A model generated the notes under the pieces. The model had not been told where the DNA came from and did not search any database. It saw only the letters and a program-made list of their open reading frames with translations. From Actinomycetota bacterium (lineage in GTDB: Bacteria; Actinomycetota; Coriobacteriia; Anaerosomatales; Anaerosomataceae): a stretch of DNA of 64,000 bases. The stretch is from the NCBI GenBank assembly GCA_004348925.1, contig RCMX01000002.1, positions 44,046 to 108,045 on the forward strand, written 5' to 3'. The position numbers and the translations under genes are program-made. Below are positions 275 through 57,674 of the stretch, in pieces (the first letter of the stretch is position 1; each line of letters starts with the position of its first letter).

Positions 275-280
275 CGAGAA

Positions 281-315: not shown

Positions 316-339
316 TCTCTATCGGACAAAATCGTTGCT

Positions 340-648: not shown

Positions 649-662
649 GGCTTTCACCTGTG

Positions 663-4725: not shown

Positions 4726-4760
4726 GAGACCCCCCGAACCAAGGCGACATGCCGCTTTAC

Positions 4761-4789
4761 AGATTGCCGGAACGGTCTGACATAGACAA
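4761..4789 (-). promoter_or_regulatory. Possible cas9 promoter
   Basis: On the minus strand TTGTCT (4789-4784) and CAATCT (4766-4761) are 17 bases apart, about 35 bases before the cas9 start. The tracrRNA terminator lies just upstream, so cas9 needs a promoter of its own. The boxes are weak matches and the assignment is tentative. Confidence 0.3.
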
Positions 4790-4809
4790 ATGCCATGCTT
4801 TCGGTGGGC

Positions 4810-4845
4810 AAGAAGGACGCCCCGCTGACCGAGGTCAACGGGGCG
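4810..4845 (-). terminator. Rho-independent terminator of tracrRNA
   Basis: Arms 4845-4834 and 4829-4818 pair over about 12 positions with one G-U pair and a 4-base loop. On the minus strand the hairpin is followed by TCCTTCTT. This is the only hairpin in the window with a clear T-rich tail, as expected for a tracrRNA 3' end that also contacts Cas9. Confidence 0.75.
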
Positions 4846-4920
4846 GCGCCTTACGCTTTCGCTTATCCTAGCAAGCCCGCCACACTCCGAAATGGTACGA
4901 GACACTGGATTTGCGAGCGC
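4810..4920 (-). ncRNA. tracrRNA
   Basis: Bases 4864-4903 on the minus strand are complementary to the CRISPR repeat, with a short bulge near the repeat 5' end as in known repeat:anti-repeat duplexes. The RNA would run from about 4920 down through the anti-repeat and a short linker to a 12-base-pair hairpin at 4818-4845, then TCCTTCTT at 4817-4810. It lies upstream of cas9 and is read in the same direction. Its size, roughly 110 bases, and its layout match II-C tracrRNAs. The exact ends are inferred. Confidence 0.85.
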
Positions 4921-4926
4921 AGGACG

Positions 4927-4956
4927 AGGGTACCACCGTCCTCTGACACGGTGCAA
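4927..4956 (-). promoter_or_regulatory. Promoter of tracrRNA
   Basis: On the minus strand TTGCAC (4956-4951) precedes TACCCT (4932-4927) by 18 bases, and the -10 is extended (TGGTACCCT, 4935-4927). Initiation near 4920 would start the RNA about 17 bases before the anti-repeat. The same TGGTACCCT box precedes the UDP-glucose dehydrogenase gene at 43788-43780. Confidence 0.65.
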
Positions 4957-4989
4957 CAACGACCGGTGCGCCTCTCACCGGATTGCTTC

Positions 4990-8730: not shown

Positions 8731-9493
8731 CAATGCCCATCCCACGTTTCTGGAAGCGGTCCGCCGCGAGTGGTGGATCCCCGTCGTTGTGATGGTGCTT
8801 GCCGGCGGGATCGCGCTCGGCATCGCATCGGCGAATCCTGAGCCGCTGTACGAAGGGCGCGCCGTGATCGTCATCGACGCGCCGACGCTCTCGAAGTTCC
8901 CCGACCTTCCCAAGCCGGATGCCATGATCCGGGAGGTCACGAGCGCAGAATTCTCATCCGAGGTGGCAAGCCGCGCGGTCGTGCCGAGCGAGACGGTGGC
9001 CGCCGGGCTTCGGGCGTCGACTCGAGATGACCCGCAGAGCCAGCTTATCGTTACATTCGAATCGCCGGACGAAACCTTGGCTTCACGAGTCGCCACGATC
9101 GCGGCCGGCTATGCGGCCGAGCGTGCCGGTGTTATCGGCGGCAAAGAGATCTGGGAGTTGCAGCGTCGTGTGAGCGAGACCCAGCGAGCGCTCAAAGAGG
9201 TGCTGAAGATCAGCTCCGAGGCCGGTCGCAACGCGGACGAGGCGTTCAAGCTGGCGGCAGCGGGCACGCAGTGGGAGATGCGCATGCGCCTTTACGAAGA
9301 CACGCTCGCACTTCGCACGCTCCGCAACGCCTACTACTACAATGGAAACGTGAAGGCACCCGATATCTCGCCGGTGCGTCGGCGGGGCGCTACCATCGCC
9401 GGGGCGCTCGTCTTCGGTCTCGTGCTCGGGCTCGTGATCGCGGTCTTCCGCGAGGCGTTGCTGTTGCGACCGCCCAGGTCGCATGCCGTGTGA
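8723..9493 (+). CDS. Wzz-like chain-length determinant (copy A)
   Basis: The 256-residue protein has one transmembrane helix near residues 19-36, a long extracytoplasmic part with a helical stretch at about 140-190, and a second helix near the C-terminus (about 225-243). This is the two-helix topology of Wzz / polysaccharide co-polymerase proteins. It overlaps the ligase gene upstream, and the same pair recurs at 53172-55290. It probably controls chain length or assembly of the polymer made by its partner. It has no attached tyrosine-kinase domain. Confidence 0.7.
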   Translation: MPDNAHPTFLEAVRREWWIPVVVMVLAGGIALGIASANPEPLYEGRAVIVIDAPTLSKFPDLPKPDAMIREVTSAEFSSEVASRAVVPSETVAAGLRASTRDDPQSQLIVTFESPDETLASRVATIAAGYAAERAGVIGGKEIWELQRRVSETQRALKEVLKISSEAGRNADEAFKLAAAGTQWEMRMRLYEDTLALRTLRNAYYYNGNVKAPDISPVRRRGATIAGALVFGLVLGLVIAVFREALLLRPPRSHAV

Positions 9494-35431: not shown

Positions 35432-35499
35432 GAAGATTCGCGACCAGGCAGGATTGTCTCGGCGTGATGCAGCATGTCGACTCTGGGAGAGAAGAGCAG

Positions 35500-36795
35500 A
35501 TGGGACTCAAAGAACGAATCGAGAGCGGGGAAGCCGTCTTCGGTGTGGTCGGTCTCGGATATGTTGGACTGCCGCTCGCAGTAGAGATGGCGAAGTCCGG
35601 CCACAAGGTCATCGGGCTCGAGGTCTCGGAGGGTAAGACCGTCGAGGTCAACGCGGGCAGAAGCTACATCCCCGACGTGCCCACAGACGAGCTGGCCGAG
35701 CTTGTCGACGCCGGTCTCATCCAGGCGACCACGGATTTCTCCCGCGTTGCCGAGACGGACGTCGTCGTCATCTGCGTGCCGACGCCGCTCAACAAGATGA
35801 AGGAGCCGGACACCTCGTTCATGGAATCCGCTGCTGCGGCGGTTGCGCCGTACCTGCATCCCGACATGCTCGTCACGCTTGAATCGACCACGTACCCCGG
35901 GACCACCGAGGAAGTCGTGCAGCCGATCCTTGAGGCGAACGGCCTGAAGGTCGGAACGAACCTGTACCTCGCGTTCTCCCCCGAGCGAGTCGATCCCGGC
36001 AACCCTGTCTTCCAGACCCGCAACACCCCCAAGGTCGTGGGCGGGGTCACGCACGAATGCACCGAGGTCGCCGTGGCAATGTACGCGCGCTTCATCGACA
36101 CCGTGGTGCCGGTTAGCTCGACGCGTGCCGCCGAGATGACGAAGCTCCTCGAGAACATCTTCCGCTGCGTGAACATCGCGCTCATGAACGAGCTGCTGCA
36201 GGTCTGCGAGCGCATGGGCATCAACATCTGGGAAGTCGTCGACGCGGCGAAGACCAAGCCGTTCGGCTTCATGCCGTTCTACCCCGGCCCGGGTCTTGGC
36301 GGGCATTGCATCCCGATCGACCCGTTCTATCTCTCGTGGAAGGCCCGCGAGTTCGACCTGCACACCGAGTTCATCGAGCTCGCCGGCAAGGTCAACGAGA
36401 ACATGCCCTACTACGTGGTGCAGCGGCTCATGGAGGCGCTCAACACCCAGCGCAAACCGCTTGCGGGCTCACGTATCCTGCTCCTGGGCGTCGCGTACAA
36501 GAACGACATCGACGACATGCGCGAATCCCCGGCCATCAAGATCGCCGAGCTTCTTGCCGAGAAGGAAGCGAATCTCGTCTACCACGACCCGTACGTGCCC
36601 AAGTTCAGCTTCGACGGGCGCACGCTTGAGAGCGTGGCGCTCACCGAGGCCGAGCTTGCCTCGGCAGATGCGGTGCTGGTCGTGACGGATCACCGCAACG
36701 TCGACTACCACCTCGTGGTCCGGGCGTCGCGCCTCATCGTTGACACACGCAACGCGCTTAAGGCGTTCGACGACAACAAGGTGGTGCGCCTGTGA
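35500..36795 (+). CDS. wbpA: UDP-N-acetylglucosamine 6-dehydrogenase, WbpA-like
   Basis: The enzyme oxidises UDP-GlcNAc (or a close relative) to the uronic acid with two NAD. The 431-residue protein has VGLGYVGLPLAVEMAKSG for NAD, a central dimer domain, and the catalytic Cys near residue 270 in GPGLGGHCIPIDPFYL; this form is typical of UDP-N-acetyl-hexosamine rather than UDP-glucose dehydrogenases. The ATG after GGGAGAGAAGAG was chosen. It heads a four-gene set (A, B, D, E) and overlaps the next gene by 4 bases. Confidence 0.88.
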   Translation: MGLKERIESGEAVFGVVGLGYVGLPLAVEMAKSGHKVIGLEVSEGKTVEVNAGRSYIPDVPTDELAELVDAGLIQATTDFSRVAETDVVVICVPTPLNKMKEPDTSFMESAAAAVAPYLHPDMLVTLESTTYPGTTEEVVQPILEANGLKVGTNLYLAFSPERVDPGNPVFQTRNTPKVVGGVTHECTEVAVAMYARFIDTVVPVSSTRAAEMTKLLENIFRCVNIALMNELLQVCERMGINIWEVVDAAKTKPFGFMPFYPGPGLGGHCIPIDPFYLSWKAREFDLHTEFIELAGKVNENMPYYVVQRLMEALNTQRKPLAGSRILLLGVAYKNDIDDMRESPAIKIAELLAEKEANLVYHDPYVPKFSFDGRTLESVALTEAELASADAVLVVTDHRNVDYHLVVRASRLIVDTRNALKAFDDNKVVRL

Positions 36796-37820
36796 CCGGC
36801 AAGCCCGTCCGCGTGGGAGCAGTCGGCTTCGGGTACTGGGGTCCCAACCTCGTCCGCAACGTCGACAAGGCGGGCGACGCGCAGCTCGTCGCTGCGTGCG
36901 ATCTGTCCGAGTCGAACCTCGCCAAGCTCAAGGCGCTCTACCCGCATGTCGAGACGACCACTGACCTTGACGCATTCTTGGCCGACTACGACCTCGATGC
37001 TGTCGTCGTGGCCACGAGCGCGCCAAGCCACTTCGCGATCGCGAGCAAGGTGATTGCGGCAGGGAAGCACTGCTTCGTCGAGAAGCCGCTCACGCTCAAG
37101 AGCGAGGACTCCGCGGCACTCGTGCGCGCGGCAGACGCAGCCGGCGTCGTGCTGATGGTCGGACACCTGATGGAGTACCACTCGGCAATCAACTGGATCA
37201 AGGACTATGTCGCGTCGGGCGAGCTCGGCGACGTGCTCTACCTGTACATGCAGCGCCTCAACCTCGGCAAGGTCCGTACCGAGGAGAACGCGTTCTGGTC
37301 GCTCGCGCCGCACGATGTGTCGATCGCGCTCTACGTTCTCGGCGAGACGCCGGACTATGTGAGCGCGAACGGCGCGGCGTACGTGACGCCCGGCGTGCAC
37401 GATACCGTCTTTGCGAACCTGCATTTCCCGAGCGGCAAGATGGCGAACATCCACGTGAGCTGGCTCGACCCGCACAAGGTTCGCAAGCTCACGATAGTCG
37501 GCACCAAGAAGATGCTCGTGTTCGACGACATGGAAGCCACCGAGAAGCTGTGGATCTACGATCGCGGCGTGGGTGCTCCCGAGAACGCCATGGCGTACGG
37601 CGAGGACCTCACGCTGCGCTTCGGCGACATCACGGTCCCGTGGGTCCCGCTCAAAGAGCCGCTTGCACTCGAGGTCCAGCACTTCCTCGACTGCTGCGCC
37701 ACCGGTTCCACCCCCCGGAGCGATGGCCGGGACGGACTCAACGTGGTCCGCGTTCTTGAGGCCGTCGACGCGTCCATGGCCGCCGGAGGATCACCTGCGG
37801 CAATCGCACAGGAGGTCTGA
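36792..37820 (+). CDS. wbpB: Gfo/Idh/MocA oxidoreductase, WbpB-like
   Basis: In the WbpABED route this enzyme oxidises C3 of UDP-GlcNAcA to a ketone. The 342-residue protein has an N-terminal NAD domain with GAVGFGYWGPNLVRN, the catalytic lysine in CFVEKPLTLK, and a C-terminal alpha/beta substrate domain with LAPHDVSIALYVLGE. The GTG start overlaps the dehydrogenase gene. Gfo/Idh proteins are broad, and the specific role comes from its neighbours. Confidence 0.8.
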   Translation: MTGKPVRVGAVGFGYWGPNLVRNVDKAGDAQLVAACDLSESNLAKLKALYPHVETTTDLDAFLADYDLDAVVVATSAPSHFAIASKVIAAGKHCFVEKPLTLKSEDSAALVRAADAAGVVLMVGHLMEYHSAINWIKDYVASGELGDVLYLYMQRLNLGKVRTEENAFWSLAPHDVSIALYVLGETPDYVSANGAAYVTPGVHDTVFANLHFPSGKMANIHVSWLDPHKVRKLTIVGTKKMLVFDDMEATEKLWIYDRGVGAPENAMAYGEDLTLRFGDITVPWVPLKEPLALEVQHFLDCCATGSTPRSDGRDGLNVVRVLEAVDASMAAGGSPAAIAQEV

Positions 37821-37821
37821 G

Positions 37822-38562
37822 ATGAGCGCATATGTGCACCCGTCGGCGAAGGTCGGCGCGAACTTCGCGCCCGCGCCGTTCTGCATCATCGACGAGGATG
37901 TCGTCATTGGAGACAACGTCACCGTCGGTTCGTTCGTGCGCATCTGCGCCGGCGCGGTCCTCGGCGATGACGTGACCGTTGCCGACGGCGCGATCGTCGG
38001 CAAGCGGCCGAAGCTTGCGAAGGGCTCGACAGCCAAAGGCGGCGAGCTTCCCGGCGTAGTGCTCGGGCGTGGCTGCGCCGTCGGCAGCAATGCCGTGGTG
38101 ATGGCCGGCTCGACCTTCGGCGTGGAGTGCATCATCGCTGACGGCGCCGGCGTTCGTGAGCGCTGCACGATCGGCGACAACGTCGTCGTGGGGCGCAACG
38201 TCACGGTCGAGAACGACACAAGCATCGGTAGTCGCACGCGCATTCAGTCCGGCGCCTACGTCACCGCGTATGTCACGATCGAAGAAGACGTCTTCATCGC
38301 ACCGATGGTGGTCACCACCAACGACAACTACATGGGCCGTACCGAGAAGCGCCTCACCGAGATGCGCGGCTGCACGATCCGCCGCGGCGCGCGTGTTGGC
38401 GGGGGGGCCCACATACTCCCCGGCATCGAGATTGGCGAGGATGCGTTCATCGCGACTGCGTCTGTGGTGACCCGAAACGTCCCGGCGCGCACCCTTGTGA
38501 TGGGCACGCCTGCCAAGGTCGTCAAAGACGTTCCGGAAGAAGAACTGCTCGAGAACCAGTAA
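37822..38562 (+). CDS. wbpD: Left-handed beta-helix N-acetyltransferase, WbpD-like
   Basis: The 246-residue protein is built largely of hexapeptide repeats of the VIGDNVTVGS type from about residue 5 to 225, a trimeric acyl-CoA-dependent acetyltransferase fold. The loop MVVTTNDNYMGR and the C-terminal MGTPAKVVKDV fit sugar N-acetyltransferases. In context it would acetylate the 3-amino group made by the aminotransferase. It is longer than Pseudomonas WbpD (about 190), with extra coils. GGAGG precedes the ATG, right after the wbpB stop. Confidence 0.78.
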   Translation: MSAYVHPSAKVGANFAPAPFCIIDEDVVIGDNVTVGSFVRICAGAVLGDDVTVADGAIVGKRPKLAKGSTAKGGELPGVVLGRGCAVGSNAVVMAGSTFGVECIIADGAGVRERCTIGDNVVVGRNVTVENDTSIGSRTRIQSGAYVTAYVTIEEDVFIAPMVVTTNDNYMGRTEKRLTEMRGCTIRRGARVGGGAHILPGIEIGEDAFIATASVVTRNVPARTLVMGTPAKVVKDVPEEELLENQ

Positions 38563-38572
38563 CGGCAACGTG

Positions 38573-38603
38573 ACGGCAGTCCCATCGTGCGGGACGGGGC
38601 CGT
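38573..38603 (+). terminator. Hairpin between wbpD and wbpE
   Basis: ACGGC (38573-38577) pairs with GCCGT (38599-38603) and GTCCC (38579-38583) with GGGAC (38591-38595), forming a broken stem in the 96-base gap. It has no T-run and may only attenuate or protect the message. Confidence 0.35.
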
Positions 38604-38658
38604 CGCTGGATGCGAAGATGTGTCGAATCAACTACGAGACGATGAGGAGCTGGACTCC

Positions 38659-39765
38659 ATGGGCGTACCTTTGCTTGACCTGAAGGCCCAGTACCGTGAA
38701 CTGCAGGCCGAACTCGATGCGGCCATCAACGACGTCATGTCGAACGCTTCATTCATCGGCGGGCCGAAGGTGGCCGCGCTTGAGCAGGCGATCGCCGACT
38801 ACTGCGGCACCACGTACGCCGTCGCGTGCGGAAACGGCACGGACGCCCTCTTCCTGATACTTGCGGCAATGGGCATCGGCAAGGGTGACGAGGTCATCAC
38901 GACGCCGTTCACGTTCTTCGCGACGGTCGAAGCGATCGTCCACCTTGGCGCCAAGCCTGTGTTCGTCGATATCGAACCCGGCACCTACAACATGGACGTC
39001 ACCGCCCTTGAGGCCGCGATCACCGATCGCACCAAGGCGATCATGCCGGTGCACATCTTCGGTCAGTGCGTCGATATGGATGTCGTCAATGAGATCGCTT
39101 CCCGTCATGGCCTGAAGGTGATCGAGGATGCCTGTCAGGCGATCGGGGCCACCTACAAAGGCCGCATGGCGGGGTCGCTTGCGGACGCCGCCGCTTTCTC
39201 GTTCTTCCCCAGCAAGAATCTTGGTTGTGCCGGTGATGGTGGCATCATCACCACCGACGACAAGGCCATCGCCGACGAGTGCCGCAAGCTCGCGAACCAC
39301 GGCTCAAGCCGCAAGTACTACCACGACGCGTTCGGCGTGAATTCGCGCCTCGACGCGCTGCAGGCTGCCATCCTTCTCGTGAAGCTGCCTCATCTGGACG
39401 CGTGGAACGCACAGCGGCGCGCGGCCGCCGAGGTCTATAGCGAGCTCCTGTCGGGGGTCGAGGGCATCGAGCTTCCCGTCGTCCGCGACTACGGCGTCCC
39501 GGTCTATCACCTCTACATCGTCAAGTCAGAGCGTGCCGAGAAGGTCATGGCCGCGCTGCAGGCGGCCGGTATCGGCACCGCGCTGTATTACCCGCTCGCA
39601 CTCCACGAGCAGGAGTGCTTCGAGTCAGTGGGCGGCTTCGTGAAGCCGTCGCTGCCGGAAGCCGAGTCGTGCGACGCGCGCACGTTCGCTCTGCCATGCT
39701 TCCCCGGCATCACTCGCGCACAACAGGATGAGATCGTCCGGGTCGTCAAGGATGCGCTCGCCTGA
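38659..39765 (+). CDS. wbpE: DegT/DnrJ/EryC1 aminotransferase, WbpE-like
   Basis: This pyridoxal-phosphate enzyme would transaminate the 3-keto sugar nucleotide. The 368-residue protein starts VPLLDLKAQYRELQ, has GNGTDALFLILAAMGIG, the cofactor Asp in VIEDACQAIGATY, and the Schiff-base lysine in FSFFPSKNLGCAGDGG. A GAGGAG lies before the chosen ATG. With the WbpA-, B- and D-like genes it completes a route from UDP-GlcNAc to a 2,3-diacetamido-2,3-dideoxy-glucuronic acid. Confidence 0.88.
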   Translation: MGVPLLDLKAQYRELQAELDAAINDVMSNASFIGGPKVAALEQAIADYCGTTYAVACGNGTDALFLILAAMGIGKGDEVITTPFTFFATVEAIVHLGAKPVFVDIEPGTYNMDVTALEAAITDRTKAIMPVHIFGQCVDMDVVNEIASRHGLKVIEDACQAIGATYKGRMAGSLADAAAFSFFPSKNLGCAGDGGIITTDDKAIADECRKLANHGSSRKYYHDAFGVNSRLDALQAAILLVKLPHLDAWNAQRRAAAEVYSELLSGVEGIELPVVRDYGVPVYHLYIVKSERAEKVMAALQAAGIGTALYYPLALHEQECFESVGGFVKPSLPEAESCDARTFALPCFPGITRAQQDEIVRVVKDALA

Positions 39766-47751: not shown

Positions 47752-47781
47752 TTGCTATGCTTCTTGGAACCTGGCTATGAT
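47752..47781 (+). promoter_or_regulatory. Promoter for the PIG-L/LpxD-like operon
   Basis: TTGCTA (47752-47757) and TATGAT (47776-47781) are 18 bases apart. Initiation near 47788 leaves a leader of about 33 bases before the ATG at 47821, with GAGAGG as the likely ribosome-binding site. Confidence 0.55.
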
Positions 47782-47820: not shown

Positions 47821-48450
47821 ATGCGCAAGGTCCTCGTGCTCGCTCCACATACCGACGATGCCGAGATCGGCTGCGGTGGCACGCTGGCGCGGTTCGTCGA
47901 AGAAGGCAAGGAGATCTTCGTCGCGGCGTTCTCGACTGCCGAGGACTCCCTGCCTCCCGGGGCGCCTCCCGGGTTGTTGCGCGACGAATTCCACGAAGCT
48001 ATGGATCTTCTCGGCATACCGTCCGAGCGGCGCTTCGTCTACGACTACCGGGTGCGTCAGCTCTCCTATCATCGTCAGGAGGTGCTTGAGGAGCTGGTTC
48101 GGCTGAGGGACCTCATCCATCCCGATACGGTTCTCGTTCCGTCGTCGAACGATGTGCATCAGGACCATCAGGTGATCTCGAATGAAGTCGCGCGCGCATT
48201 CCGAGACTGTACTGTCCTGGGATATGAGCTGCCGTGGAACCACTACACCTTCGCCACACATGCGTTCGTGACTCTGGAGCCGCGCCACCTGGATATGAAG
48301 TGGAAGGCGCTGCAGGTCTACAAGTCGCAGCTTGAACTCGGGCGCCCGTACTTCAGCTGGGAGCTGATCGAGGGGCTTGCACGGGTGAGAGGCGTTCAGG
48401 TCCGCTCTGAATTCGCTGAAGCGTTCGAGGTCATTCGCTACAAGATCTAG
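47821..48450 (+). CDS. PIG-L family (LmbE-like) N-deacetylase
   Basis: PIG-L enzymes are zinc-dependent deacetylases that free the amino group of N-acetylglucosamine derivatives. The 209-residue protein has the metal motif APHTDDAEIGCGGT at residues 8-21 and the second histidine cluster NDVHQDHQ near 116, and is of ordinary length. It lies 9 bases before an LpxD-like N-acyltransferase, the same functional pairing as LpxC/LpxD: one removes acetyl, the next adds another acyl group. The sugar substrate is not known. Confidence 0.88.
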   Translation: MRKVLVLAPHTDDAEIGCGGTLARFVEEGKEIFVAAFSTAEDSLPPGAPPGLLRDEFHEAMDLLGIPSERRFVYDYRVRQLSYHRQEVLEELVRLRDLIHPDTVLVPSSNDVHQDHQVISNEVARAFRDCTVLGYELPWNHYTFATHAFVTLEPRHLDMKWKALQVYKSQLELGRPYFSWELIEGLARVRGVQVRSEFAEAFEVIRYKI

Positions 48451-48459
48451 GGAGAACGT

Positions 48460-49410
48460 ATGCCGACAGCGGGGCAGATCGCTGACTTCCTCGGCGTCGA
48501 TGTCGAGGCATTCGCGGATGACTGGCGCACGTACGAGATCGAAGCACCTTCATCATTGACCGAAGCATCAGCCGGCACCCTCGTTTTCCTCAAGACGCCG
48601 GGTGTTGACATCGCCGAAGCGCTTGGTGCCACGGCGCCGACCATGATCATCGCGCCGATGAGCGCACGGGTGGAGGCCGCCGGAATGCGGTCACACGGCG
48701 TGGCGTGCGTGGCACGCGTCGAGAACCCTCGTCTGGCGTTCGCGACCGTGGTCTCCGCGTTCTTCCTACGGGATGCCGTCCCGGGCATTCACCCCTCCGC
48801 CGCCATCGCTGCTTCGGCGACGATCGGGCAGCGGGTGTCCATCGGCGCACACGCGACGATCGGTGAGGCGACCATCGGTGACGACACGGTGATCGACGCC
48901 GGCGTCCGAGTCTACGATGGTGTCGTCATCGGCAATCGCGTGCGGGTCTTCGCGAATGCCGTCCTGGGCGCGGATGGCTTCGGTTTCGAGCGCGGCGCAG
49001 ACGGCGAGCCGGTGAAGTTCCCCCAGATAGGCGGGGTCGTGATCGAAGACGACGTCGAGATCGGCGCCGGCACCTGTGTCGACAGGGGCGCTCTGTCGAA
49101 CACGCGCGTCTGCAGAAACGCGAAGATCGACAACATGGTGCACGTCGCGCACAACGTCGTCGTCGGGGAGGGCACGCTCATAGCCGCGAACGCGGTGATC
49201 GCCGGGAGCACGGTGCTTGGGCGCGGGGTCTGGGTCGGTCCATCGGCATGCGTATCAAATGGTCTGGTCGTCGGCTCGGGTGCGTCTGTGAGTCTGGGCG
49301 CTGTAGTGACGCGGGATGTGCCGGAGGGGACCAGGGTGACCGGCAACTTCGCGACCGACCACGCGAAGTTCATGGCGAACCTTCGGCGACAGAGCGACCG
49401 AATCGGATAA
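48460..49410 (+). CDS. LpxD-like sugar N-acyltransferase
   Basis: The 316-residue protein has the complete LpxD layout. An N-terminal domain (about 1-100, with SLTEASAGTLVFL and ENPRLAFA) binds the UDP-sugar in LpxD, then GIHPSAAIAASATIG opens the left-handed beta helix. GADGFGFE, PQIGGVVIEDDVEIGAG, DRGALSNT and VHVAHNVVVGEGT follow, the last with the likely catalytic His near 230. In Gram-negatives LpxD adds a 3-hydroxyacyl chain from ACP in lipid A synthesis. This organism shows no other lipid A genes, so it probably modifies a surface-glycan amino sugar. It may use ACP or CoA donors. Confidence 0.85.
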   Translation: MPTAGQIADFLGVDVEAFADDWRTYEIEAPSSLTEASAGTLVFLKTPGVDIAEALGATAPTMIIAPMSARVEAAGMRSHGVACVARVENPRLAFATVVSAFFLRDAVPGIHPSAAIAASATIGQRVSIGAHATIGEATIGDDTVIDAGVRVYDGVVIGNRVRVFANAVLGADGFGFERGADGEPVKFPQIGGVVIEDDVEIGAGTCVDRGALSNTRVCRNAKIDNMVHVAHNVVVGEGTLIAANAVIAGSTVLGRGVWVGPSACVSNGLVVGSGASVSLGAVVTRDVPEGTRVTGNFATDHAKFMANLRRQSDRIG

Positions 49411-49451
49411 CGAAGCGTTGTCATTGCCGGATGCGGGTCGCTGCACGTCGG

Positions 49452-49457
49452 TATACT
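49452..49457 (+). promoter_or_regulatory. -10 box close to a start codon
   Basis: TATACT ends 8 bases before the ATG at 49466 and no ribosome-binding site lies between, so a leaderless transcript is possible. The nearest -35-like hexamer (TTGCCG, 49424-49429) is 22 bases away, too far for a standard promoter. Confidence 0.35.
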
Positions 49458-49465
49458 CTGTAGTC

Positions 49466-50803
49466 ATGCATCCCACTCGATCTGGCCGGCTCCTCTTCAT
49501 TGCGCACGAGTTTCCACCCTCCGCTGGGGGTGGAGTCCAGCGCCTGACCAAGTTCGCCCGCTACCTGGGCGAGATGGGCTGGGACATCCAGGTACTGTCA
49601 GCGACACCCGTTCCCGGTCGACCGCGCGACGAAACCCTGCTCGGCGAGGTGGATGGCATCCGGGTGTTCAGGCGACCGGCTCGTCACATCGCGGGGTACA
49701 TCGCTGGGGTCCTCCGGCCACTGAAGCGCATGAAGGCGGTCGTTCCTGGCGCTGCCGCTGCTGGAGCATCGAGCGGTACACCCGGCGCCGCTGAGGGTCG
49801 GGGCCCGTTGAGCGGACGGATCTCCCGGTGGCTTGCTGTGCCTGACGACGCCGTCCTCTGGGCACGGGACATCCCGGTCGTCGCTGCCCGCATGCACAGG
49901 GAAGCACCGTTCGCCGCTATCGTCGCGTCAGGACCGCCCTACTCGGCGTTGGTCGGAGCCGTGCGTGCGGGTGAGCGGCTACAGGTGCCTGTGATCGCCG
50001 ACTTGCGCGATCCATGGAGCGGCAATCTCCATGCCGTGTGGCCTACCACGTGGCATCAGCGTCGGTTCCATGCGCTTGAGCGCGAAGTCATGGAGCGTGT
50101 CGCGGGCGTCACGGCTGTCTCCGAGGTCATCGCTGCCGAGGCGATCGCATACGGAGCCAAACGGGCTGAGGTCATCCCCAACGGCTTCGATGCGGCAGAC
50201 ATGCCAGCATGGTCACCGGACACGTCGGCACCGTTGAGGATTGCTTTCCTCGGACAATTCAGCCCCGGCGTCGCCGATCCGGCAGGATTCTTCGCCGGTG
50301 TCGCCGCCGCTCGAGGAAGCGAGCCGCTTCTTGCAGATCTCCGCATCGACGTCGTGGGCCCGGCCGCTCCGTGGGCCGTCGAGTCGGCACATCGCGTCGG
50401 CCTCGGCGACGCTGTCGTCTTCCACGGGTTCAAGCCGTACGCCGAAGCCCTGCGCGTGATCGCCGCAGCGGATGCAGGGCTGATCGTGCTCGCAGACTCG
50501 CCCGGGTCCAAGGGAGTCTATTCAGGGAAACTATTCGATTACGTGGGTATCGGAATCCCGATACTGCTGTACGGTCCTCCCGAGGGCGCGGCCGCCGACG
50601 TCGTGCGCGCAACGGGGTGTGGAGCCGTGGTCCGATATGGTGATCTTGCGCAGGTTGAAGCGGCGGTCATCGCACTGGCGCGAGAAAAGGCCTCCGGGGG
50701 TGTCCAATGCCAGTCATCACAAGCCGTCCGGGCCACGTACGATCGACGCGAGCAGGTGCGGGTCCTCTCGCGCATGATCGAGGACGTGATCACGGCCCGC
50801 TAG
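49466..50803 (+). CDS. Glycosyltransferase, GT4-like
   Basis: The 445-residue GT-B protein starts with RLLFIAHEFPPSAGGGVQRLTKFARYL, the nucleotide-sugar family opening. After a low-complexity Ala/Gly-rich linker at about 89-107 it has ADLRDPWSGN, VIPNGFDAADM and GSKGVYSGKLFDYVGIGIP. It follows the LpxD-like gene by 55 bases on the same strand and may use the sugar those enzymes modify. The donor and linkage are unknown. Confidence 0.85.
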   Translation: MHPTRSGRLLFIAHEFPPSAGGGVQRLTKFARYLGEMGWDIQVLSATPVPGRPRDETLLGEVDGIRVFRRPARHIAGYIAGVLRPLKRMKAVVPGAAAAGASSGTPGAAEGRGPLSGRISRWLAVPDDAVLWARDIPVVAARMHREAPFAAIVASGPPYSALVGAVRAGERLQVPVIADLRDPWSGNLHAVWPTTWHQRRFHALEREVMERVAGVTAVSEVIAAEAIAYGAKRAEVIPNGFDAADMPAWSPDTSAPLRIAFLGQFSPGVADPAGFFAGVAAARGSEPLLADLRIDVVGPAAPWAVESAHRVGLGDAVVFHGFKPYAEALRVIAAADAGLIVLADSPGSKGVYSGKLFDYVGIGIPILLYGPPEGAAADVVRATGCGAVVRYGDLAQVEAAVIALAREKASGGVQCQSSQAVRATYDRREQVRVLSRMIEDVITAR

Positions 50804-50832
50804 CCCGGCGCTGACTGGCGCCCTGGCGCACC

Positions 50833-50841
50833 TGCTATACT
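50833..50841 (+). promoter_or_regulatory. Extended -10 upstream of the thiolase gene
   Basis: TGCTATACT is a strong extended -10. The leader to the TTG start at 50890 is about 42 bases and has GAAAGGAG 6 bases before the start. Confidence 0.55.
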
Positions 50842-50889
50842 GCCCGCCGGTCGCGTTACGACGCGTCGGACGTTCGAAAGGAGCGATCG

Positions 50890-52035
50890 TTGCCTCAAGG
50901 ATATGTGGTCGGCGTCGGGAAGACCCGTTTCGGGCCGACGTCCAAGAGCCTCCCCATGCTCGCTCAGGAGGCACTCATCGCTGCACTTGAGGACGCCGGC
51001 CTTACGATCGGTGATATCGACGCGTTCATCGTCGCGAACTACCTCGGCGGCCCGAATGAGGGCCGGCTGCATCTGAACTCGGTCGTTGCAGGTCTGCTCC
51101 CGGGGGTCAATCTGCCGGGTTGGCGCGTGGAGGCCGCATGCGCTTCCGGAGGCGTCGCCGTGCACCAGGCGCTGCTCTCGCTTTCACGGTACGAGAACGT
51201 GCTCGTCCTAGGCGTCGAGCGCATGAGCGGTATCCCCGGGATGCTCCTGACCAAGAACATCGGCATGGCCGGCGACCTCGACCTCGACCAGGGTGCGGGA
51301 CTGAACTTCCCTGCGAGCTACGCGCTCGTCGCACAGCGGCACATGCAGACGTATGGGACTACGACTCGTGACCTCGAGCTCATCAGCCTCAAGAATCATG
51401 AGAACGCGCGCCGCAACCCGCTCGCGCACTTCTATCACAAGTCCGTGGTTCAGGCAGACATCGACGCTGGCGTCACCGTTGCGTCGCCCCTGCGTCTGTT
51501 CGATTGCTGTCCGGTCTCGGACGGTGCTGCTGCGGCGGTCATCTCCCGCGATTCGCGGGACGGGCGCAGCATCCCTGTGCTCGGGAGCGGTTTGTCCACA
51601 GACGCCATATCGCTAACGCAGCGGACCGTGCACACGTCGTTTCAGGCGGCACGTGATGCTGCGGCAACGGCGTACGCGCAAGCCGACATAGTTGCGGCTG
51701 ATGTCGATTTTGCCGAAGTCCACGACTGCTTCACTATCGCGGAGATCGTTGCGATGGAGGACCTGGGCTTTTGCGAGCCCGGCGCTGCCGTTTCGCTCAT
51801 CAGGGGCGGGGTGACGTCACGCGACGGGTCGCTGCCTGTCAATGCAAGCGGTGGCCTGAAAGCGGGTGGCCATGCGATCGGTGCGACCGGTGTGGGGCAG
51901 GTCTACGAGGTCGTCAGGCAGTTGCGAGGCGAAGCGGGCGATCGACAGCTGGCACGAGCGGAGATCGGGCTCACACACAACGTCGGCGGAGTCGGTGGCA
52001 CGTGTGCCATCCATGTCATGGGGAGTGCGTCATGA
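50890..52035 (+). CDS. Thiolase, SCPx/archaeal acetoacetyl-CoA type
   Basis: The 381-residue protein is a thiolase of the SCPx-like class. The nucleophilic Cys is in VEAACASGGVAVHQ (near 82), the active-site His in VHDCFTIAE, a third motif in GGLKAGGHAIGATGVGQ, and the last Cys in GGTCAIHVMG. This class condenses two acetyl-CoA in archaea or cleaves 3-ketoacyl-CoA, and normally works with a DUF35 protein. Here the partner module is fused to the next enzyme, whose gene overlaps by 4 bases (ATGA). The start is TTG. Confidence 0.87.
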   Translation: MPQGYVVGVGKTRFGPTSKSLPMLAQEALIAALEDAGLTIGDIDAFIVANYLGGPNEGRLHLNSVVAGLLPGVNLPGWRVEAACASGGVAVHQALLSLSRYENVLVLGVERMSGIPGMLLTKNIGMAGDLDLDQGAGLNFPASYALVAQRHMQTYGTTTRDLELISLKNHENARRNPLAHFYHKSVVQADIDAGVTVASPLRLFDCCPVSDGAAAAVISRDSRDGRSIPVLGSGLSTDAISLTQRTVHTSFQAARDAAATAYAQADIVAADVDFAEVHDCFTIAEIVAMEDLGFCEPGAAVSLIRGGVTSRDGSLPVNASGGLKAGGHAIGATGVGQVYEVVRQLRGEAGDRQLARAEIGLTHNVGGVGGTCAIHVMGSAS

Positions 52036-53156
52036 GCCGCAGGAACTGTCCTTCATGTGGCGCGCGGTACGGCTACGAACTGGAGCGCTGCACGTTCTGC
52101 GCGGCGCCGCTCGTCGAAACGGAATCGACCTCGGGGACCGCGATGGCGGTGACCGAGGTCTCTGTGCCGTCGGTAGGGCATGAGGACACTCCCTATTGGT
52201 GCGCATTGCTTCAGACCGATGACGGGGGTTCCGCCATCGTGAAGCTCGGGCATCCGGTCGAAGTGGGACAACGGGTCACCATGGGAATCACCGACGACGC
52301 GGAGCGGATCACCGTCGGTGTGCTCGGCACGGGCATCATGGGGAAGGGGCTCGTGGAACTTCTGCTCGGTTCAGGCAACGATGTCGTCTGGATCGCACGG
52401 AGCCAGTCGAGTCTGGACACGGCGCGCATCAAGCTGAGCGAGCGGCTGGCACGGGTGATGGACAGCGACGAACTCGATGAGCGTCTCGGCCATCTTGATG
52501 CTGGAACCGACATGGCCGCGCTTGGCCGGTGCGATCTTGTGATCGAGGCCATCGTCGAGGAGCTGGAGCCGAAGAAGGAGTGGCTGCGAGCTGCCGAGTC
52601 GTCGATGCGGCCAGACGCCGTTCTGGCGACGAACACGTCCGGATTGCCCCTTGACGAGCTGGCAGAGGTCCTTGAGCATCCCGGGCGTTTCGGTTGCCTT
52701 CACTTCTTCAACCCTGCGACCCGGATGAGGCTCGTCGAGGTGTCTGTGCCTGAGCAAACAGACGCTCAGACGCTTGAGACGCTGACCGCCTTCTCGCGAG
52801 CGCTCGGCAAAGTTCCGGTCACGGTGCGGTCGCGACCCGCATTCGTCGTGAATCGCGTTCTGATGCCGCTGATCAACGAGGCCGTGCGATCGCTCGAAGA
52901 GGAGGCCGCTACAGCCGAGCAGATAGACGAGGCTGTCCGTCTGGGCCTGAACCACCCGATGGGCCCGCTTGAGCTTGCCGATCTGATCGGCCTGGACGTC
53001 ATCGTCGACATCATGGACAACCTTGTCGAAAGGACGGCTGACAGCACGTACGCCCCCCGTCCGATGCTGAGAGAACTCGTGGCCCAAGGTCATCTCGGCC
53101 GAAAGACGCACCGCGGATTCTACGATCACAGCGCCCCGCCGGGAGCTGTCACGTGA
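52032..53156 (+). CDS. DUF35-like zinc-ribbon/OB module fused to 3-hydroxyacyl-CoA dehydrogenase
   Basis: Residues 1-91 look like a DUF35 acyl-CoA-associated module: a zinc ribbon with Cys6, Cys9, Cys20 and Cys23, then a small beta-rich OB-like part (about 36-86). From residue 93 a complete 3-hydroxyacyl-CoA dehydrogenase follows: NAD motif GTGIMG at 99-104, VIEAIVEELEPKKE, the catalytic His224 in LHFFNP, and NHPMGPLELADLIGLD at 307-322. The total is 374 residues, against about 280-290 for the dehydrogenase alone. It would reduce acetoacetyl-CoA to 3-hydroxybutyryl-CoA next to the thiolase that makes it. I know this fusion from no described protein. The DUF35 identification rests on pattern, not on a search. 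Confidence 0.82.
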   Translation: MSRRNCPSCGARYGYELERCTFCAAPLVETESTSGTAMAVTEVSVPSVGHEDTPYWCALLQTDDGGSAIVKLGHPVEVGQRVTMGITDDAERITVGVLGTGIMGKGLVELLLGSGNDVVWIARSQSSLDTARIKLSERLARVMDSDELDERLGHLDAGTDMAALGRCDLVIEAIVEELEPKKEWLRAAESSMRPDAVLATNTSGLPLDELAEVLEHPGRFGCLHFFNPATRMRLVEVSVPEQTDAQTLETLTAFSRALGKVPVTVRSRPAFVVNRVLMPLINEAVRSLEEEAATAEQIDEAVRLGLNHPMGPLELADLIGLDVIVDIMDNLVERTADSTYAPRPMLRELVAQGHLGRKTHRGFYDHSAPPGAVT

Positions 53157-53171
53157 ACGGGCGATACACGC

Positions 53172-54554
53172 ATGCCGGCTGAGCTTACACGCCCGCAGCG
53201 CATCTCCGTCGCCTCCTGGCTCGCGATCGCGGTGTTCTTCGGCGTGCTCGGTGGCCTCGCGGCGGCCCGCGACATGCAGACGCTGCTTGTGGCGGGGATC
53301 GCCGGGATCGCGTTCTCCGCAATCGTGATCCGCCGGTTCGAAATCGGGCTGTTCGCCTTGTTGCTGACGCTTCCGCTCGACATCTACGGGCGCATCATCA
53401 CGGACCCGATTCCGCTCACCGCATTCCAGGTCGTTCTGGCCGCCACGCTCGTTGCGTGGGCGGCACGCATTCTCACCGACGCGCACCGGTGGCTCAGGAT
53501 CTCCGCGATGGACATGGGCGTGCTGGCGCTCGTTCTGGCCGCGTTCATCTCTGTCACGTTCTCCGCTGCTCCCGGCGACACGTTGTACGCGGCGGTTCGA
53601 GTCATGTTCCTGTGGATGTTCATGCTGCTGATAGAGAACGGCATTCAGGAGAAGCAGCAGCTCGAGCGGTACTTCGGCGTGCTCATCGCGACGGCGGTGT
53701 TCTTCGGGCTGTTCGGCGTCGCGCAGCAGTACCTGCCGGGCTTCGACTACGGCAACACGCACCAGAACCTGGCGCTCGACGGCAGCGTGAATCTCTCGCG
53801 TGCGGCCGGACTCTTCGAGGATCCCAACATGTTTGCGGGGTATCTCTCGGCGTGCTTCGTTGCCGCGCTCGCGTTCGCGGTTCACGCCCGCTCGCGGCAG
53901 CGGATCGCGATTCTGCTGGGGGCGACAGCCATCATCGGCGCCGGGCTGGTCGTCACGTTCTCCCGCACGGGGTGGGTGGGCGCTCTTGTCGGCGTCATCG
54001 TAGCGGCGCTCACGGCGCCCAAAGGTCGCCGGATCCGCATCATCAGCGGTGGAGTCGCACTTGTCGTGCTGGCGATGCTCCTTGCACCCGGCCAGGTTGC
54101 CGATCGCGCCACCTCGATCTTCGATACCGAGCGCGACCTGTCGAACATCACCCGCTACGGGATGTACCTGTCGACCGTGGAGATGATCAAGGACGACTGG
54201 GTCGGCGGTACCGGACTTGCCGCGTTCGAGCAGGTGTATCCTGACTACCGGCAACCCGGCACGATCTTGAGCGTTCGCAAGCCGCACCAGCTCCCCATAG
54301 CGTTCTGGGCCGAGATGGGTGTGTTCGGCCTTGCGGCGGAGATCCTGCTGGTCGGTGCCCTCGCGGCGCTCTTCTGGCCGAGACGGGGCAGGCCGTGGAC
54401 GGTCTTCGAGGCGGCCTCGCTTGCCGGTCTGCTCACGCTGCTTTCCGAGACGTTCTTCCAGTACTATCTGTACTTCGAGTACCTCTGGCTGTTCGTTGCG
54501 CTGTGTGTCGTTTCATCACGACTCGCGCGCTCGAGTGTGAAAGGTGTTGAGTGA
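53172..54554 (+). CDS. O-antigen ligase / Wzy-like membrane protein (copy B)
   Basis: The 460-residue membrane protein has about 11-12 helices and the same signature as copy A: VTFSRTGWVGAL, then GGTGLAAFEQVYPDYRQPG, then KPHQLPIAFWAEMGVFGLAAE. It would polymerise or ligate lipid-linked glycans outside the membrane. It starts 15 bases after the dehydrogenase fusion and overlaps the Wzz-like gene by 11 bases. Copy A at 7324-8730 is a clear paralogue with the same downstream neighbour. Confidence 0.82.
   Translation: MPAELTRPQRISVASWLAIAVFFGVLGGLAAARDMQTLLVAGIAGIAFSAIVIRRFEIGLFALLLTLPLDIYGRIITDPIPLTAFQVVLAATLVAWAARILTDAHRWLRISAMDMGVLALVLAAFISVTFSAAPGDTLYAAVRVMFLWMFMLLIENGIQEKQQLERYFGVLIATAVFFGLFGVAQQYLPGFDYGNTHQNLALDGSVNLSRAAGLFEDPNMFAGYLSACFVAALAFAVHARSRQRIAILLGATAIIGAGLVVTFSRTGWVGALVGVIVAALTAPKGRRIRIISGGVALVVLAMLLAPGQVADRATSIFDTERDLSNITRYGMYLSTVEMIKDDWVGGTGLAAFEQVYPDYRQPGTILSVRKPHQLPIAFWAEMGVFGLAAEILLVGALAALFWPRRGRPWTVFEAASLAGLLTLLSETFFQYYLYFEYLWLFVALCVVSSRLARSSVKGVE
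54451..54494 (+). repeat. 44-base exact match to 8633-8676 (copy 2)
   Basis: Identical in sequence and reading frame to part of ligase copy A. The surrounding sequence differs. Confidence 0.9.
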
Positions 54555-55290
54555 CGTGACCGAGCCGCTCTCCTTCAATCGGATACTCGCCGTGCTCAAG
54601 CGGCAGTGGTGGATCGTGGTCGCGGTCGTCGCCGTCGCAGGCGTGGCAGGCTTCGTGGCGTCCTCCGGCGTCGCTGATGTCTACACCGGTGTCGCCAAGA
54701 TCGCCATCGACACCGCGCCATCCTCGCGCTATCGCGGGATGCCCGTCGCGGATGATCTGGTGAAGGCGACGTCGGGCTCCGAGATGCGCGCTGCCGTCGC
54801 ACAGGCGCTGGGAACGAGCGAGGCGGACGTCGCGGCGAACCTGCGCGCGACAGCGGCCGGCAACCCGCTCACGACGATTCGCGTGACATACACGGCCGCC
54901 ACAAAGGATGCCGCCCAGGCAGGGGCACGCGCGGGCGCGAATGCGATCATCGACGTCGTGGACGCCTCGATGGCCAAGGAGATCGCCATCCGAGAAGCCC
55001 AGATCGAGGCTTCGAAGAAGGCGCTCGCCGCCATCGACGCCGCCGCCAGGTCCGAAGCGCCGAGCGCTCAGACTGCATACCAGCGGTGGGCGATCGAGAC
55101 GCAGCTCCTCGACTACACAAGTGCGCTTGAGGGAATCGTCGGCGTCTATACCTATGACGGAACGAGTTCATCGTCTGTCAGCCTCGGGTCGGACGCGCGC
55201 AATCGAAACGTCCTTGGCGCCGCCGTGGTGGGAGTTGCGCTCGGCATACTTCTCGCTGGTGTGAGAGAGGCGCTTCGGAAGCGCACGTAG
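54544..55290 (+). CDS. Wzz-like chain-length determinant (copy B)
   Basis: The 248-residue protein shows the two-helix Wzz topology: helix one at about 21-38 after LKRQWWIVVAVV, an extracytoplasmic domain with a helical region at about 130-180, and helix two at about 222-240. The RQWW/REWW sequence before helix one is shared with copy A. It overlaps the ligase gene, so the pair is likely to act together on one polymer. Confidence 0.7.
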   Translation: MLSDVTEPLSFNRILAVLKRQWWIVVAVVAVAGVAGFVASSGVADVYTGVAKIAIDTAPSSRYRGMPVADDLVKATSGSEMRAAVAQALGTSEADVAANLRATAAGNPLTTIRVTYTAATKDAAQAGARAGANAIIDVVDASMAKEIAIREAQIEASKKALAAIDAAARSEAPSAQTAYQRWAIETQLLDYTSALEGIVGVYTYDGTSSSSVSLGSDARNRNVLGAAVVGVALGILLAGVREALRKRT

Positions 55291-55339
55291 CCGTCCAGCT
55301 GCGGGCCCTGCCGTTCGTCGCTGCCTGGCACGGTGCGGG

Positions 55340-55348
55340 TGGTATACT
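55340..55348 (+). promoter_or_regulatory. Extended -10 upstream of the SpoIID-CWB2 gene
   Basis: TGGTATACT matches the extended -10 form, 44 bases before the GTG at 55392. CGGAGG at 55379-55384 is the ribosome-binding site. Confidence 0.55.
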
Positions 55349-55391
55349 CAGACACTGGATGTAGCAGTCGAATCACAACGGAGGTTCTTCC

Positions 55392-57674
55392 GTGCGCCGT
55401 AGCAAATACATCCGGTTCGCCGCTGCCGTGGCGACCATCGCATTGCTCGTCGCCCCGATTGCGACCCCTCCAGCGCGCGCTGACATCATGCCCACGGCGA
55501 TCCCGTATTTCACCTTCAGTGGCAGCGGATACGGGCATGGCATAGGAATGAGCCAGTTCGGGGCGCAAGGCTCCGCTCTCGCCGGAAAATCGTACTCGTG
55601 GATTCTTCAGCACTACTACACCGGTGGCGTGATCGGCAGCATCGGAGCGTTCACGGCGAAGGTGAACGTCGATTCCGCCTACACGTCGAGTTACTCCGCC
55701 TATGCCGGGCGGGTTTCGTGGACGATTCGTTCGATCGACTCACCCCTTGAGATCTATCGTTCAGGTGATACGACACTCACGTTGGCCTCGGACACGTACT
55801 ACGTGCTCACCGTCAGCGGGAGCGTTGTCTCGGTCAAGACGACGAGCGGCACACTCGTGGGGACGTTTGGCGGATCGTGCTGGGCGGCCCCAAAGGGACC
55901 TGCCGGCACCTATCCTCCGCTGATCGAAGTGAAGGACGCCTCTGGCCCGTTCAATACCGGGTGGGTCCGCTACCGAGGCAGGATGTTGGTCGACGTCAAA
56001 CCCGGCAACCGTGTGGCGCTGGTGAACAACCTGGACATGGACCAGTATCTCTATGGAGTCGTGCCGCGGGAGAGTCCGGCGGGATGGGAATCGGAAGCGC
56101 TGAAGGCGCAGGCCGTGGCCGCGCGCTCATATGCGTACGCCGACGTCGCTGGTGGCAATGTGCTGAAATGCACAACGTACAGCCAGGTGTACAACGGGCA
56201 CTCGAGACTTGAGTCCGGCGTAGTGAAGCCACACGAAGCGAGCACCACCAATGCTGCAGTGGATGCGACATCCAGGCAGGTTGTGAAGACCGGCAGCGGT
56301 GCCGTCGTCAAGACGTTCTTCTTCTCGACATCAGGTGGGCACACCGCGAACAATGAGGATGTGTGGGTGGGGGGCACACCCGTGCCGCAACTGCGCGGTG
56401 TCGAGGACACGTACGAGTATCTGGCACGCCCCGCACTTGCGCCATGGCCGGCGATCGCCGCAGATTGGCCGTCCGGTGTGCCTGCGCCCAAGCTGACAGG
56501 CGCCTCCGCTTCATGGTGGCCCAAGATTTCCGGGCTTGAGCTCGCCAATCAGATTCGCACACTGCCGGGCGTGCCCCCAGCTCCGTTGTATGTGACCGGC
56601 GTTTCCATCGAGAAGGCCGCCTCCGGCCATGCCAGGTACGTGAATCTGACCTTCGTCAACGGCACGAAGGTTCGTGTCAGCGGAGACGCGCTTCGCGGTA
56701 AGCTCAAGCTGCCATCATCGAGGTTCACGATCTCGGGCTTCCCCATGAGCCGCATCCAGGGCCCCGATCGCTACGCCACCGCGATAGCTATCTCGCAGAA
56801 GGCGTTCACCGGCACGGCACCGGCCGTGGTTCTTGCGAGCGGCGAAGCGTATCCCGATGCGCTCTGCGGTTCCGCGCTTGCCGGGGCCGAGGATGGCTCG
56901 CTCTTGCTCACGGCAAAGGCGAGTCTGCCGAGCGCGGTCGAGACCGAACTCAAGCGGCTGGCCCCGGCACGCATTTACATCATGGGTAGCACCGCGGCCG
57001 TCTCGGCTGATGTAGAGAATCGCGTACGTGCCGTGCTCCCCTCGGCGGTGACGACGCGTCTTGCAGGCGCCGATCGCTACGGGACATCGCGCAAGGTCGC
57101 CGAGAAGGTCTACGCGCTCAAGGCACCGACCAAGGCGGTTGTGGCCAACGGCCTCGCGTGGCCAGATGCTGCGTCCGTCTCGGCGCTGGCGTACGCGAAG
57201 CACTACCCGATCCTCTTCTCGCGGCAGAGCGAGCTCGGCACGGATACGGCAGGGTATCTCTCGGCTCGCAAACCGACCGGGCTTGTCGTGGGGAGCGAGA
57301 CTGTTGTGCCCGCGAGCGTGTTCGCGGAGGTCCAGACGCTCACCGCGAAGACGCCACAGCGTCTCGCGGGCCCCAACCGCTACGCTACGGCCGCCGCCAT
57401 TGCTCGCTTCAGCCTTGGCGCGCTCGAAGGCTTCTCGTCGAGCGAGGTCTACGTGACGACCGGACTGAACTACCCGGATGCGTTGGCGGGTGGCGTGATC
57501 GCGGGGAAGGGGATGCACCCGCTGGTGCTGACCGGTTTCGATTCGGTTCCGCCAGACACTGCCTCGTTCCTGAAAGAGAAGCAGCCCACAATCGGGTACA
57601 TCTGGATTCTAGGCGGCGCCGGCGCGATCTCGAAGACCGGTGCGGGCGCCATCGACTCAGTGATGATGAACTAG
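55392..57674 (+). CDS. Secreted SpoIID/LytB-domain protein with CWB2 wall-binding repeats
   Basis: The 760-residue protein has a signal peptide (about 1-30, ending PPARA), an N-terminal SGSGYGHGIGMSQFGAQG segment, and a SpoIID/LytB domain (about 200-320) with YLYGVVPRESPAGWESEALKAQAVAARSYA. Three CWB2-type repeats follow from about 455 to the end; each opens like RIQGPDRYATA, RLAGADRYGTS or RLAGPNRYATA. CWB2 repeats anchor proteins to secondary wall polymers, and SpoIID domains cut glycan strands. Catalytic activity is not proved. Confidence 0.92.
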   Translation: MRRSKYIRFAAAVATIALLVAPIATPPARADIMPTAIPYFTFSGSGYGHGIGMSQFGAQGSALAGKSYSWILQHYYTGGVIGSIGAFTAKVNVDSAYTSSYSAYAGRVSWTIRSIDSPLEIYRSGDTTLTLASDTYYVLTVSGSVVSVKTTSGTLVGTFGGSCWAAPKGPAGTYPPLIEVKDASGPFNTGWVRYRGRMLVDVKPGNRVALVNNLDMDQYLYGVVPRESPAGWESEALKAQAVAARSYAYADVAGGNVLKCTTYSQVYNGHSRLESGVVKPHEASTTNAAVDATSRQVVKTGSGAVVKTFFFSTSGGHTANNEDVWVGGTPVPQLRGVEDTYEYLARPALAPWPAIAADWPSGVPAPKLTGASASWWPKISGLELANQIRTLPGVPPAPLYVTGVSIEKAASGHARYVNLTFVNGTKVRVSGDALRGKLKLPSSRFTISGFPMSRIQGPDRYATAIAISQKAFTGTAPAVVLASGEAYPDALCGSALAGAEDGSLLLTAKASLPSAVETELKRLAPARIYIMGSTAAVSADVENRVRAVLPSAVTTRLAGADRYGTSRKVAEKVYALKAPTKAVVANGLAWPDAASVSALAYAKHYPILFSRQSELGTDTAGYLSARKPTGLVVGSETVVPASVFAEVQTLTAKTPQRLAGPNRYATAAAIARFSLGALEGFSSSEVYVTTGLNYPDALAGGVIAGKGMHPLVLTGFDSVPPDTASFLKEKQPTIGYIWILGGAGAISKTGAGAIDSVMMN

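Follow-up and report, generated by a model that had tools for sequence, protein, structure and literature searches.

A putative two-part module for exchanging the N-acyl group on a surface-polymer amino sugar in the Anaerosomatales

Why would a polysaccharide locus carry, side by side and on one strand, genes for a deacetylase, an N-acyltransferase and two enzymes suited to making 3-hydroxybutyryl-coenzyme A (CoA)? The question is raised by a stretch of 64,000 nucleotides, here called the window, from a 99% complete actinobacterial genome of the family Anaerosomataceae (GCA_004348925.1, contig RCMX01000002.1, positions 44,046 to 108,045). An earlier note on this DNA had described five consecutive same-strand genes at 47821-53156, and had read them as a single five-gene cassette for deacetylation and re-acylation with its own supply of 3-hydroxybutyryl-CoA. 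All five genes are indeed present at these coordinates on the + strand: a cytosolic PIG-L/BshB-type de-N-acetylase of 209 amino acids (47821..48450), an LpxD-like left-handed β-helix N-acyltransferase of 316 amino acids (48460..49410), a GT4-like glycosyltransferase (49466..50803), an acetoacetyl-CoA thiolase of the archaeal ACAT type from the SCP2-thiolase superfamily (50890..52035), and a DUF35 module (zinc ribbon plus OB domain) fused to a 3-hydroxybutyryl-CoA dehydrogenase (52032..53156), the ATG of which overlaps the thiolase stop codon by four bases (ATGA). The comparative data described below lend strong support to the cassette idea, with three types of acyltransferase linked to the same CoA enzymes, but not to the five-gene unit. 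We consider it fairly probable that two gene pairs, a transfer pair (PIG-L and LpxD-like) and a supply pair (thiolase and fusion), form a two-part module that exchanges one N-acyl group for another on an amino sugar belonging to a surface polysaccharide or a secondary cell-wall polysaccharide, and the module most likely makes 3-hydroxybutyryl-CoA and puts this acyl group in place of acetyl.

The product, its stereochemistry, the acceptor and the direction of the swap are what we infer for such a module. The thiolase would turn two acetyl-CoA into acetoacetyl-CoA, and the DUF35 domain would dock the fused dehydrogenase on the thiolase, handing over this unfavourable intermediate, which the dehydrogenase would convert with NAD(P)H to 3-hydroxybutyryl-CoA, probably in the (S) form. 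PIG-L would strip the acetyl group from an N-acetylated, probably uridine diphosphate (UDP)-linked, amino sugar, and the LpxD-like enzyme would add the short hydroxyacyl group from a donor carried on CoA rather than on acyl carrier protein (ACP), before the altered sugar is used by the neighbouring glycosyltransferases, flippase and polymerase.

Linkage of the two gene pairs across the order

We compared 69 genomes of the order, reading gene contexts by tblastn synteny, and found the fusion in 16 of them, in every case with the same thiolase directly 5' of it. A candidate sugar-amine acyltransferase is encoded near the supply pair in 13 of these 16 genomes and belongs to one of three unrelated types; in 12 of the 13, G037 being the exception, an amine-making enzyme is also nearby. 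In the first context, seen in four genomes (G000, G001, G002, G036), the partners are the cytosolic PIG-L and the LpxD-like protein. In the second, seen in six (G015, G008, G058, G032, G050, G037), a membrane transferase of the HGSNAT type is convergent to the fusion, and a signal-anchored PIG-L adjoins in five of the six. The third comprises three genomes with a NeuD/PglD transferase and a DegT aminotransferase, directly beside the supply pair in G060 and a few genes off in G021 and G027.

The linkage within the first context is tight. Orthologues of PIG-L (E < 1e-80, among all 69 genomes) and of the LpxD-like protein (among 61 genomes searched) occur in the identical set of four genomes. Conserved linkage in relatives, the lack of which would have spoken against the earlier note, was found both within the genus and in G036, a genome of another family: the gene order is identical in three species of the window's genus, while in G036 the layout is divergent and the two pairs adjoin with no glycosyltransferase between them. 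The thiolase tree sets G036 apart from the window's genus with branch support of 96/93 (many other branches are weak), and the link of the supply pair to PIG-L/LpxD is therefore seen on two thiolase backgrounds. Judged from the sequences, the arrangement exceeds chance, as its order is common to three species and its linkage is retained in another family. A further contig of G036 (C22, L155 2238-4317) holds an HGSNAT homologue and an anchored PIG-L besides the LpxD/PIG-L version, and this one genome may use both acylation systems.

The glycosyltransferase behaves differently. Its frame opens at a TTG at 49418, with a likely start at ATG 49466 and a stop at 50803. In the congeners G003 and G004 the gene order runs from the glycosyltransferase at 46578 to that at 49466 and on to Wzy. 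Neither pair occurs there, the two gaps lying at separate sites, and the glycosyltransferase is retained, in G004 among flanking genes that are mostly 85-98% identical to those of the window. The pairs therefore appear to come and go together, with the glycosyltransferase being a core polymer gene. Together with its absence from between the pairs in G036, this led us to reject the five-gene unit. Most relatives with the supply pair carry no PIG-L/LpxD.

HGSNAT homologues occur in nine of the 69 genomes, seven of which have the supply pair, in six cases directly adjoining (Fisher p 3e-4 for the co-occurrence, kinship ignored), and all six strong matches to the signal-anchored PIG-L lie in supply-pair genomes and beside HGSNAT. 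The Fisher tests of linkage gave 3e-4, 7e-5 and 3e-3, relatedness being ignored throughout. In these relatives the supply pair would feed the HGSNAT-type membrane transferase, with the signal-anchored PIG-L acting outside the membrane, and in the third context it would feed the NeuD/PglD transferase, the amine being provided by the DegT aminotransferase. We tentatively propose an interchangeable, lineage-specific system in which one channelled hydroxybutyryl-CoA generator may serve three unrelated N-acyltransferases, acting at either side of the membrane. Part of this system would be a pair that works on the outer side in de- and re-N-acylation (anchored PIG-L plus HGSNAT-type). If true, the outside pair would be the first role for such bacterial membrane transferases.

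The supply pair and the probable origin of the acyl group

The best match of the thiolase in the PDB is chain A of 6ESQ (238 bits), and the motifs EAACASG, VHDCF and GGHAIGATG are common, or nearly so, to the two proteins. The fusion consists of a four-cysteine zinc ribbon and an OB domain, followed by complete 3HCDH_N and 3HCDH domains, in agreement with the earlier description of a 3-hydroxyacyl-CoA dehydrogenase fused to a DUF35-like module. Its DUF35 part scores under the Pfam cut-off (17 bits vs 27.1), and a profile of the N-terminal 90 residues has the DUF35 chain of 6ESQ as its best match (E 0.0015). A fold search with the full chain returned dehydrogenases only, and the N-terminal domain was therefore modelled separately; for this AlphaFold model (pLDDT 72.5) all of the top 21 fold matches are DUF35 proteins, mostly with thiolase-fold partners. 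Invariant among 14 sequences are C6, C9, C20 and C23 as well as S203, H224, E236 and N274, and the fusion carries the NAD-binding motif GTGIMG in addition to the catalytic Ser/His/Glu/Asn set. An SCP2-type thiolase with an adjoining cognate DUF35 gene, the hallmark of a DUF35-linked thiolase, is present in all 16 fusion genomes.

Could the module act as proposed, with another acyl group? A propionyl- or isobutyryl-CoA starter would give a longer or branched 3-hydroxyacyl, as in anthrose, and SCP2-type thiolases as a family do vary in substrate; anthrose itself uses 3-hydroxy-3-methylbutyryl-CoA (PMC8141488). We regard this as unlikely: among solved structures the thiolase is closest to a true acetoacetyl-CoA thiolase, and the dehydrogenase part, which agrees with 3-hydroxybutyryl-CoA dehydrogenases in sequence as well as fold, is closest to 3-hydroxybutyryl-CoA enzymes.

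A slightly poorer case can be made for the supply pair belonging to ordinary central or degradative metabolism (the end step of β-oxidation, butyrate or polyhydroxybutyrate (PHB)) and lying in glycan loci by chance. This is the usual role of thiolases and 3-hydroxybutyryl-CoA dehydrogenases, and in G045 the pair (L043 8081-10329) has a DedA-like gene on one side and nad genes on the other, with no acyltransferase close by and no HGSNAT in the genome, whereas HGSNAT and PIG-L both occur in its congener G058. In the window's genome, however, we found no second thiolase of this kind, no second 3HCDH, no PhaC and no crotonase (the control for the latter was positive in 13/14). With the genes needed for them absent, β-oxidation and PHB are disfavoured, and any 3-hydroxybutyryl-CoA made here would have no other visible use in the window's genome. 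The recurrent association with sugar acyltransferases of three unrelated kinds likewise speaks for a role in N-acylation and makes a chance position among glycan genes improbable.

We also asked how far the fusion extends beyond the order. Among the matches listed outside the order in a sample of the phylum (397 genomes), none covered the zinc ribbon, and a short peptide pattern of the fusion was found at seven loci in GTDB contigs, all in actinobacterial metagenome-assembled genomes. On these two scans, of which the single short-peptide scan alone covers other phyla, we reject the fusion as a widespread protein. No module of DUF35 and a hydroxyacyl-CoA dehydrogenase appeared among the titles and abstracts listed from the open-access literature, and within the literature searched the predicted thiolase-docking fusion seems to be a DUF35 partner type without counterpart.

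The transfer pair and the surroundings of the locus

The PIG-L assignment is borne out by the family profile (PF02585, 68 bits) and by the metal-binding motifs PHTDDAE at residue 9 and HQDH at residue 113; no transmembrane segment was found in the window's protein. The LpxD-like protein matches PRK00892 at 239 bits, above the cut-off of 207, and falls under the lipid A LpxD equivalog TIGR01853 (201.7 vs 242.5 bits). It had been called a full-length LpxD; the acyltransferase stands, but the N-terminal domain is under its Pfam cut-off (PF04613) and about one coil of the β-helix as well as the C-terminal ACP-binding helices are absent. Aligned to E. coli LpxD, with residue roles taken from PMC6286764, the protein retains the catalytic base H239 (here H231) and the oxyanion glycine G257 (here G249), both invariant in the four orthologues, as well as D232, which binds the β-hydroxyl. 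The uracil-stacking F41 (here F43) is aligned and invariant, and the equivalents of N44 and Y47 are lost. The ruler position M290 is Ala, so that the length of the acyl pocket is not readable from the alignment. By these comparisons the protein probably resembles LpxD in its action, yet would not be classed as a lipid A LpxD, and LpxC was not found in any of the 69 genomes, the window's included, which argues against lipid A. The picture suggests that a relative of LpxD has been put to new use in bacteria that lack LpxC, apparently taking CoA instead of ACP.

It is conceivable, if improbable, that PIG-L and the LpxD-like protein are unrelated to the supply pair, their target being a lipid-linked sugar or one within the polymer, or their donor a long-chain acyl-ACP as in lipid A. 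A 3-hydroxyacyl-ACP is the donor of the LpxD family, and both pairs could independently serve one polymer. The absence of LpxC from the order and of the ACP-binding C-terminus, including N310 and R314, is at odds with this, as is the fact that the pairs are jointly present or absent in the genus and lie side by side in G036. That PIG-L and a glycosyltransferase would make a low-molecular-weight thiol of the bacillithiol or mycothiol type, the neighbours being incidental, is very improbable, since the similarities on which it draws (PIG-L to BshB1 at 65 bits, a nearby glycosyltransferase to MshA/BshA) are all far under equivalog cut-offs, no thiol ligase was noticed nearby and the linkage to LpxD would go unexplained.

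Several observations weigh against the proposed N-acyl swap. The genomes compared are related and their counts are not independent; besides G045, where no acyltransferase lies near the supply pair, and G037, which is without the PIG-L, the pair of G028 sits on a 5-kb contig with a GalU-like gene, the copy in G019 is broken, and G005 and G041 have HGSNAT without the supply pair. The AlphaFold models are of moderate confidence (pLDDT 73). Q236 of LpxD is replaced by His and H276 is absent, and acceptor or donor binding therefore differs from that of LpxD. Dehydrogenases of the 3HCDH family yield (S)-3-hydroxyacyl-CoA and the LpxD of lipid A uses (R)-3-hydroxyacyl-ACP, so that there is a tension, not raised in the earlier note, between the expected product and the preference of the lipid A enzyme. 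As to G019 (L054 8982-10706), the thiolase is split over two frames and the match to the fusion ends near residue 195, which reflects either a broken copy or an assembly error.

The surroundings of the module are those of a polysaccharide locus, which also holds an LCP-type protein, a flippase, Wzy- and Wzz-like genes and a SpoIID/CWB2 wall protein. On its 5' side, at 35464..39765 (+ strand), lie WbpA/B/D/E-like UDP-amino-sugar genes for a nucleoside diphosphate (NDP)-sugar dehydrogenase, a Gfo/Idh oxidoreductase, a hexapeptide acetyltransferase and a DegT aminotransferase; the NDP-sugar dehydrogenase scores above its subfamily cut-off, and the other three are similar but under equivalog cut-offs. 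The set also occurs in G001 and G004, and is a possible source of the acceptor sugar. The 3' block at 53172..57674 (+ strand), which encodes a Wzy/O-antigen-ligase-like protein, a Wzz-like protein and a SpoIID plus CWB2 cell-wall-binding protein, is syntenic in G001-G004. This polymer could belong to the secondary wall polymers and serve as an anchor for proteins of the wall or the S-layer: a SpoIID/LytB plus CWB2 protein lies at 55392-57674, 3' of the polysaccharide genes, and a CWB2-like fragment also adjoins LpxD in G036 (L055 3735-4031).

Upstream of PIG-L, a consensus scan gave one promoter-like site, TTGCTA-18-TATGAT (47752..47781, + strand), against 0.7 expected by chance, in a region that is conserved in G001 and G002. 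By eye, a TATACT box was seen directly 5' of the glycosyltransferase (49452..49457, + strand; conserved in G001, G002 and G004, and missed by the consensus scan) and another 5' of the thiolase (50836..50841, + strand; seen in G000 and G002 and absent from G001). Given these conserved boxes, the last in two of three genomes, the five genes probably form two or three transcription units.

Elsewhere in the window, two ligase/polymerase-like plus Wzz-like pairs (7324-9493 and 53172-55290) suggest a second polysaccharide system. A Type II CRISPR-Cas locus occupies 1-4959, with an array from position 41 (36-nt repeats, 66-nt spacing) and, on the - strand, Cas1 (663-1562) and Cas9 (1531-4959). A PHROGs scan matched only families of unknown function.

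Comparison with known systems

For a poorly known lineage, the proposed module offers concrete predictions, in that the acyl group is named, the DUF35 fusion would be a new channelling enzyme and HGSNAT/DUF5009 proteins would gain a role. The order-level lineage OPB41/Anaerosomatales has members in culture (PMC9686372).

By sequence, both the thiolase and the DUF35 domain have their nearest solved relatives in the archaeal thiolase/DUF35/HMG-CoA synthase complex (6ESQ). There, by the account given in PMC12329534, DUF35 forms the bridge between the two enzymes and no acetoacetyl-CoA is set free. By analogy, docking as in this complex is likely and acetoacetyl-CoA would be channelled to the fused dehydrogenase, the difference being that a DUF35-fused 3-hydroxybutyryl-CoA dehydrogenase stands here in place of HMG-CoA synthase. 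Enzyme-fused DUF35 domains that dock on thiolase-fold partners are known as well, namely the hydratase-DUF35 protein Shy on the aldolase Sal and ChsH2 on Ltp2 (PMC12329534), but these serve steroid side-chain breakdown with a hydratase rather than a dehydrogenase.

The order of events resembles that of LpxC and LpxD in lipid A synthesis, N-deacetylation followed by N-(3-hydroxyacyl)ation, with the LpxD fold and core catalytic residues in common. Here, in contrast, PIG-L replaces LpxC, and the ACP-binding domain is gone. In six relatives, the membrane transferases beside the supply pair are homologues of HGSNAT/DUF5009 in the TmAT superfamily (PMC12423673), membrane N-acyltransferases that use cytosolic acyl-CoA to modify an amino sugar on the outside. 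Human HGSNAT differs in acetylating the glucosamine of heparan, and for none of the DUF5009 proteins has a function been confirmed by experiment (PMC12423673).

A precedent for N-3-hydroxybutyryl amino sugars made with donor genes of their own is the viosamine island of Pseudomonas syringae (vioA, vioB, vioS, vioR, acp; PMC3927599). No module like the present one turned up among the titles and abstracts listed from the open-access literature on viosamine, 3-hydroxybutyryl and related subjects. Like the present locus, the island is a glycan locus that combines its own 3-hydroxybutyryl donor genes with an amino-sugar N-acyltransferase, and its nearest match among our contexts is the one with NeuD and DegT. 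Its proposed donor route uses β-ketoacyl-ACP synthase III, an oxoacyl-ACP reductase and ACP, whereas the route here would be CoA-based, through the thiolase and the DUF35-fused dehydrogenase. Unlike in the island, the amine would come from deacetylation in two of the three contexts, those with PIG-L.

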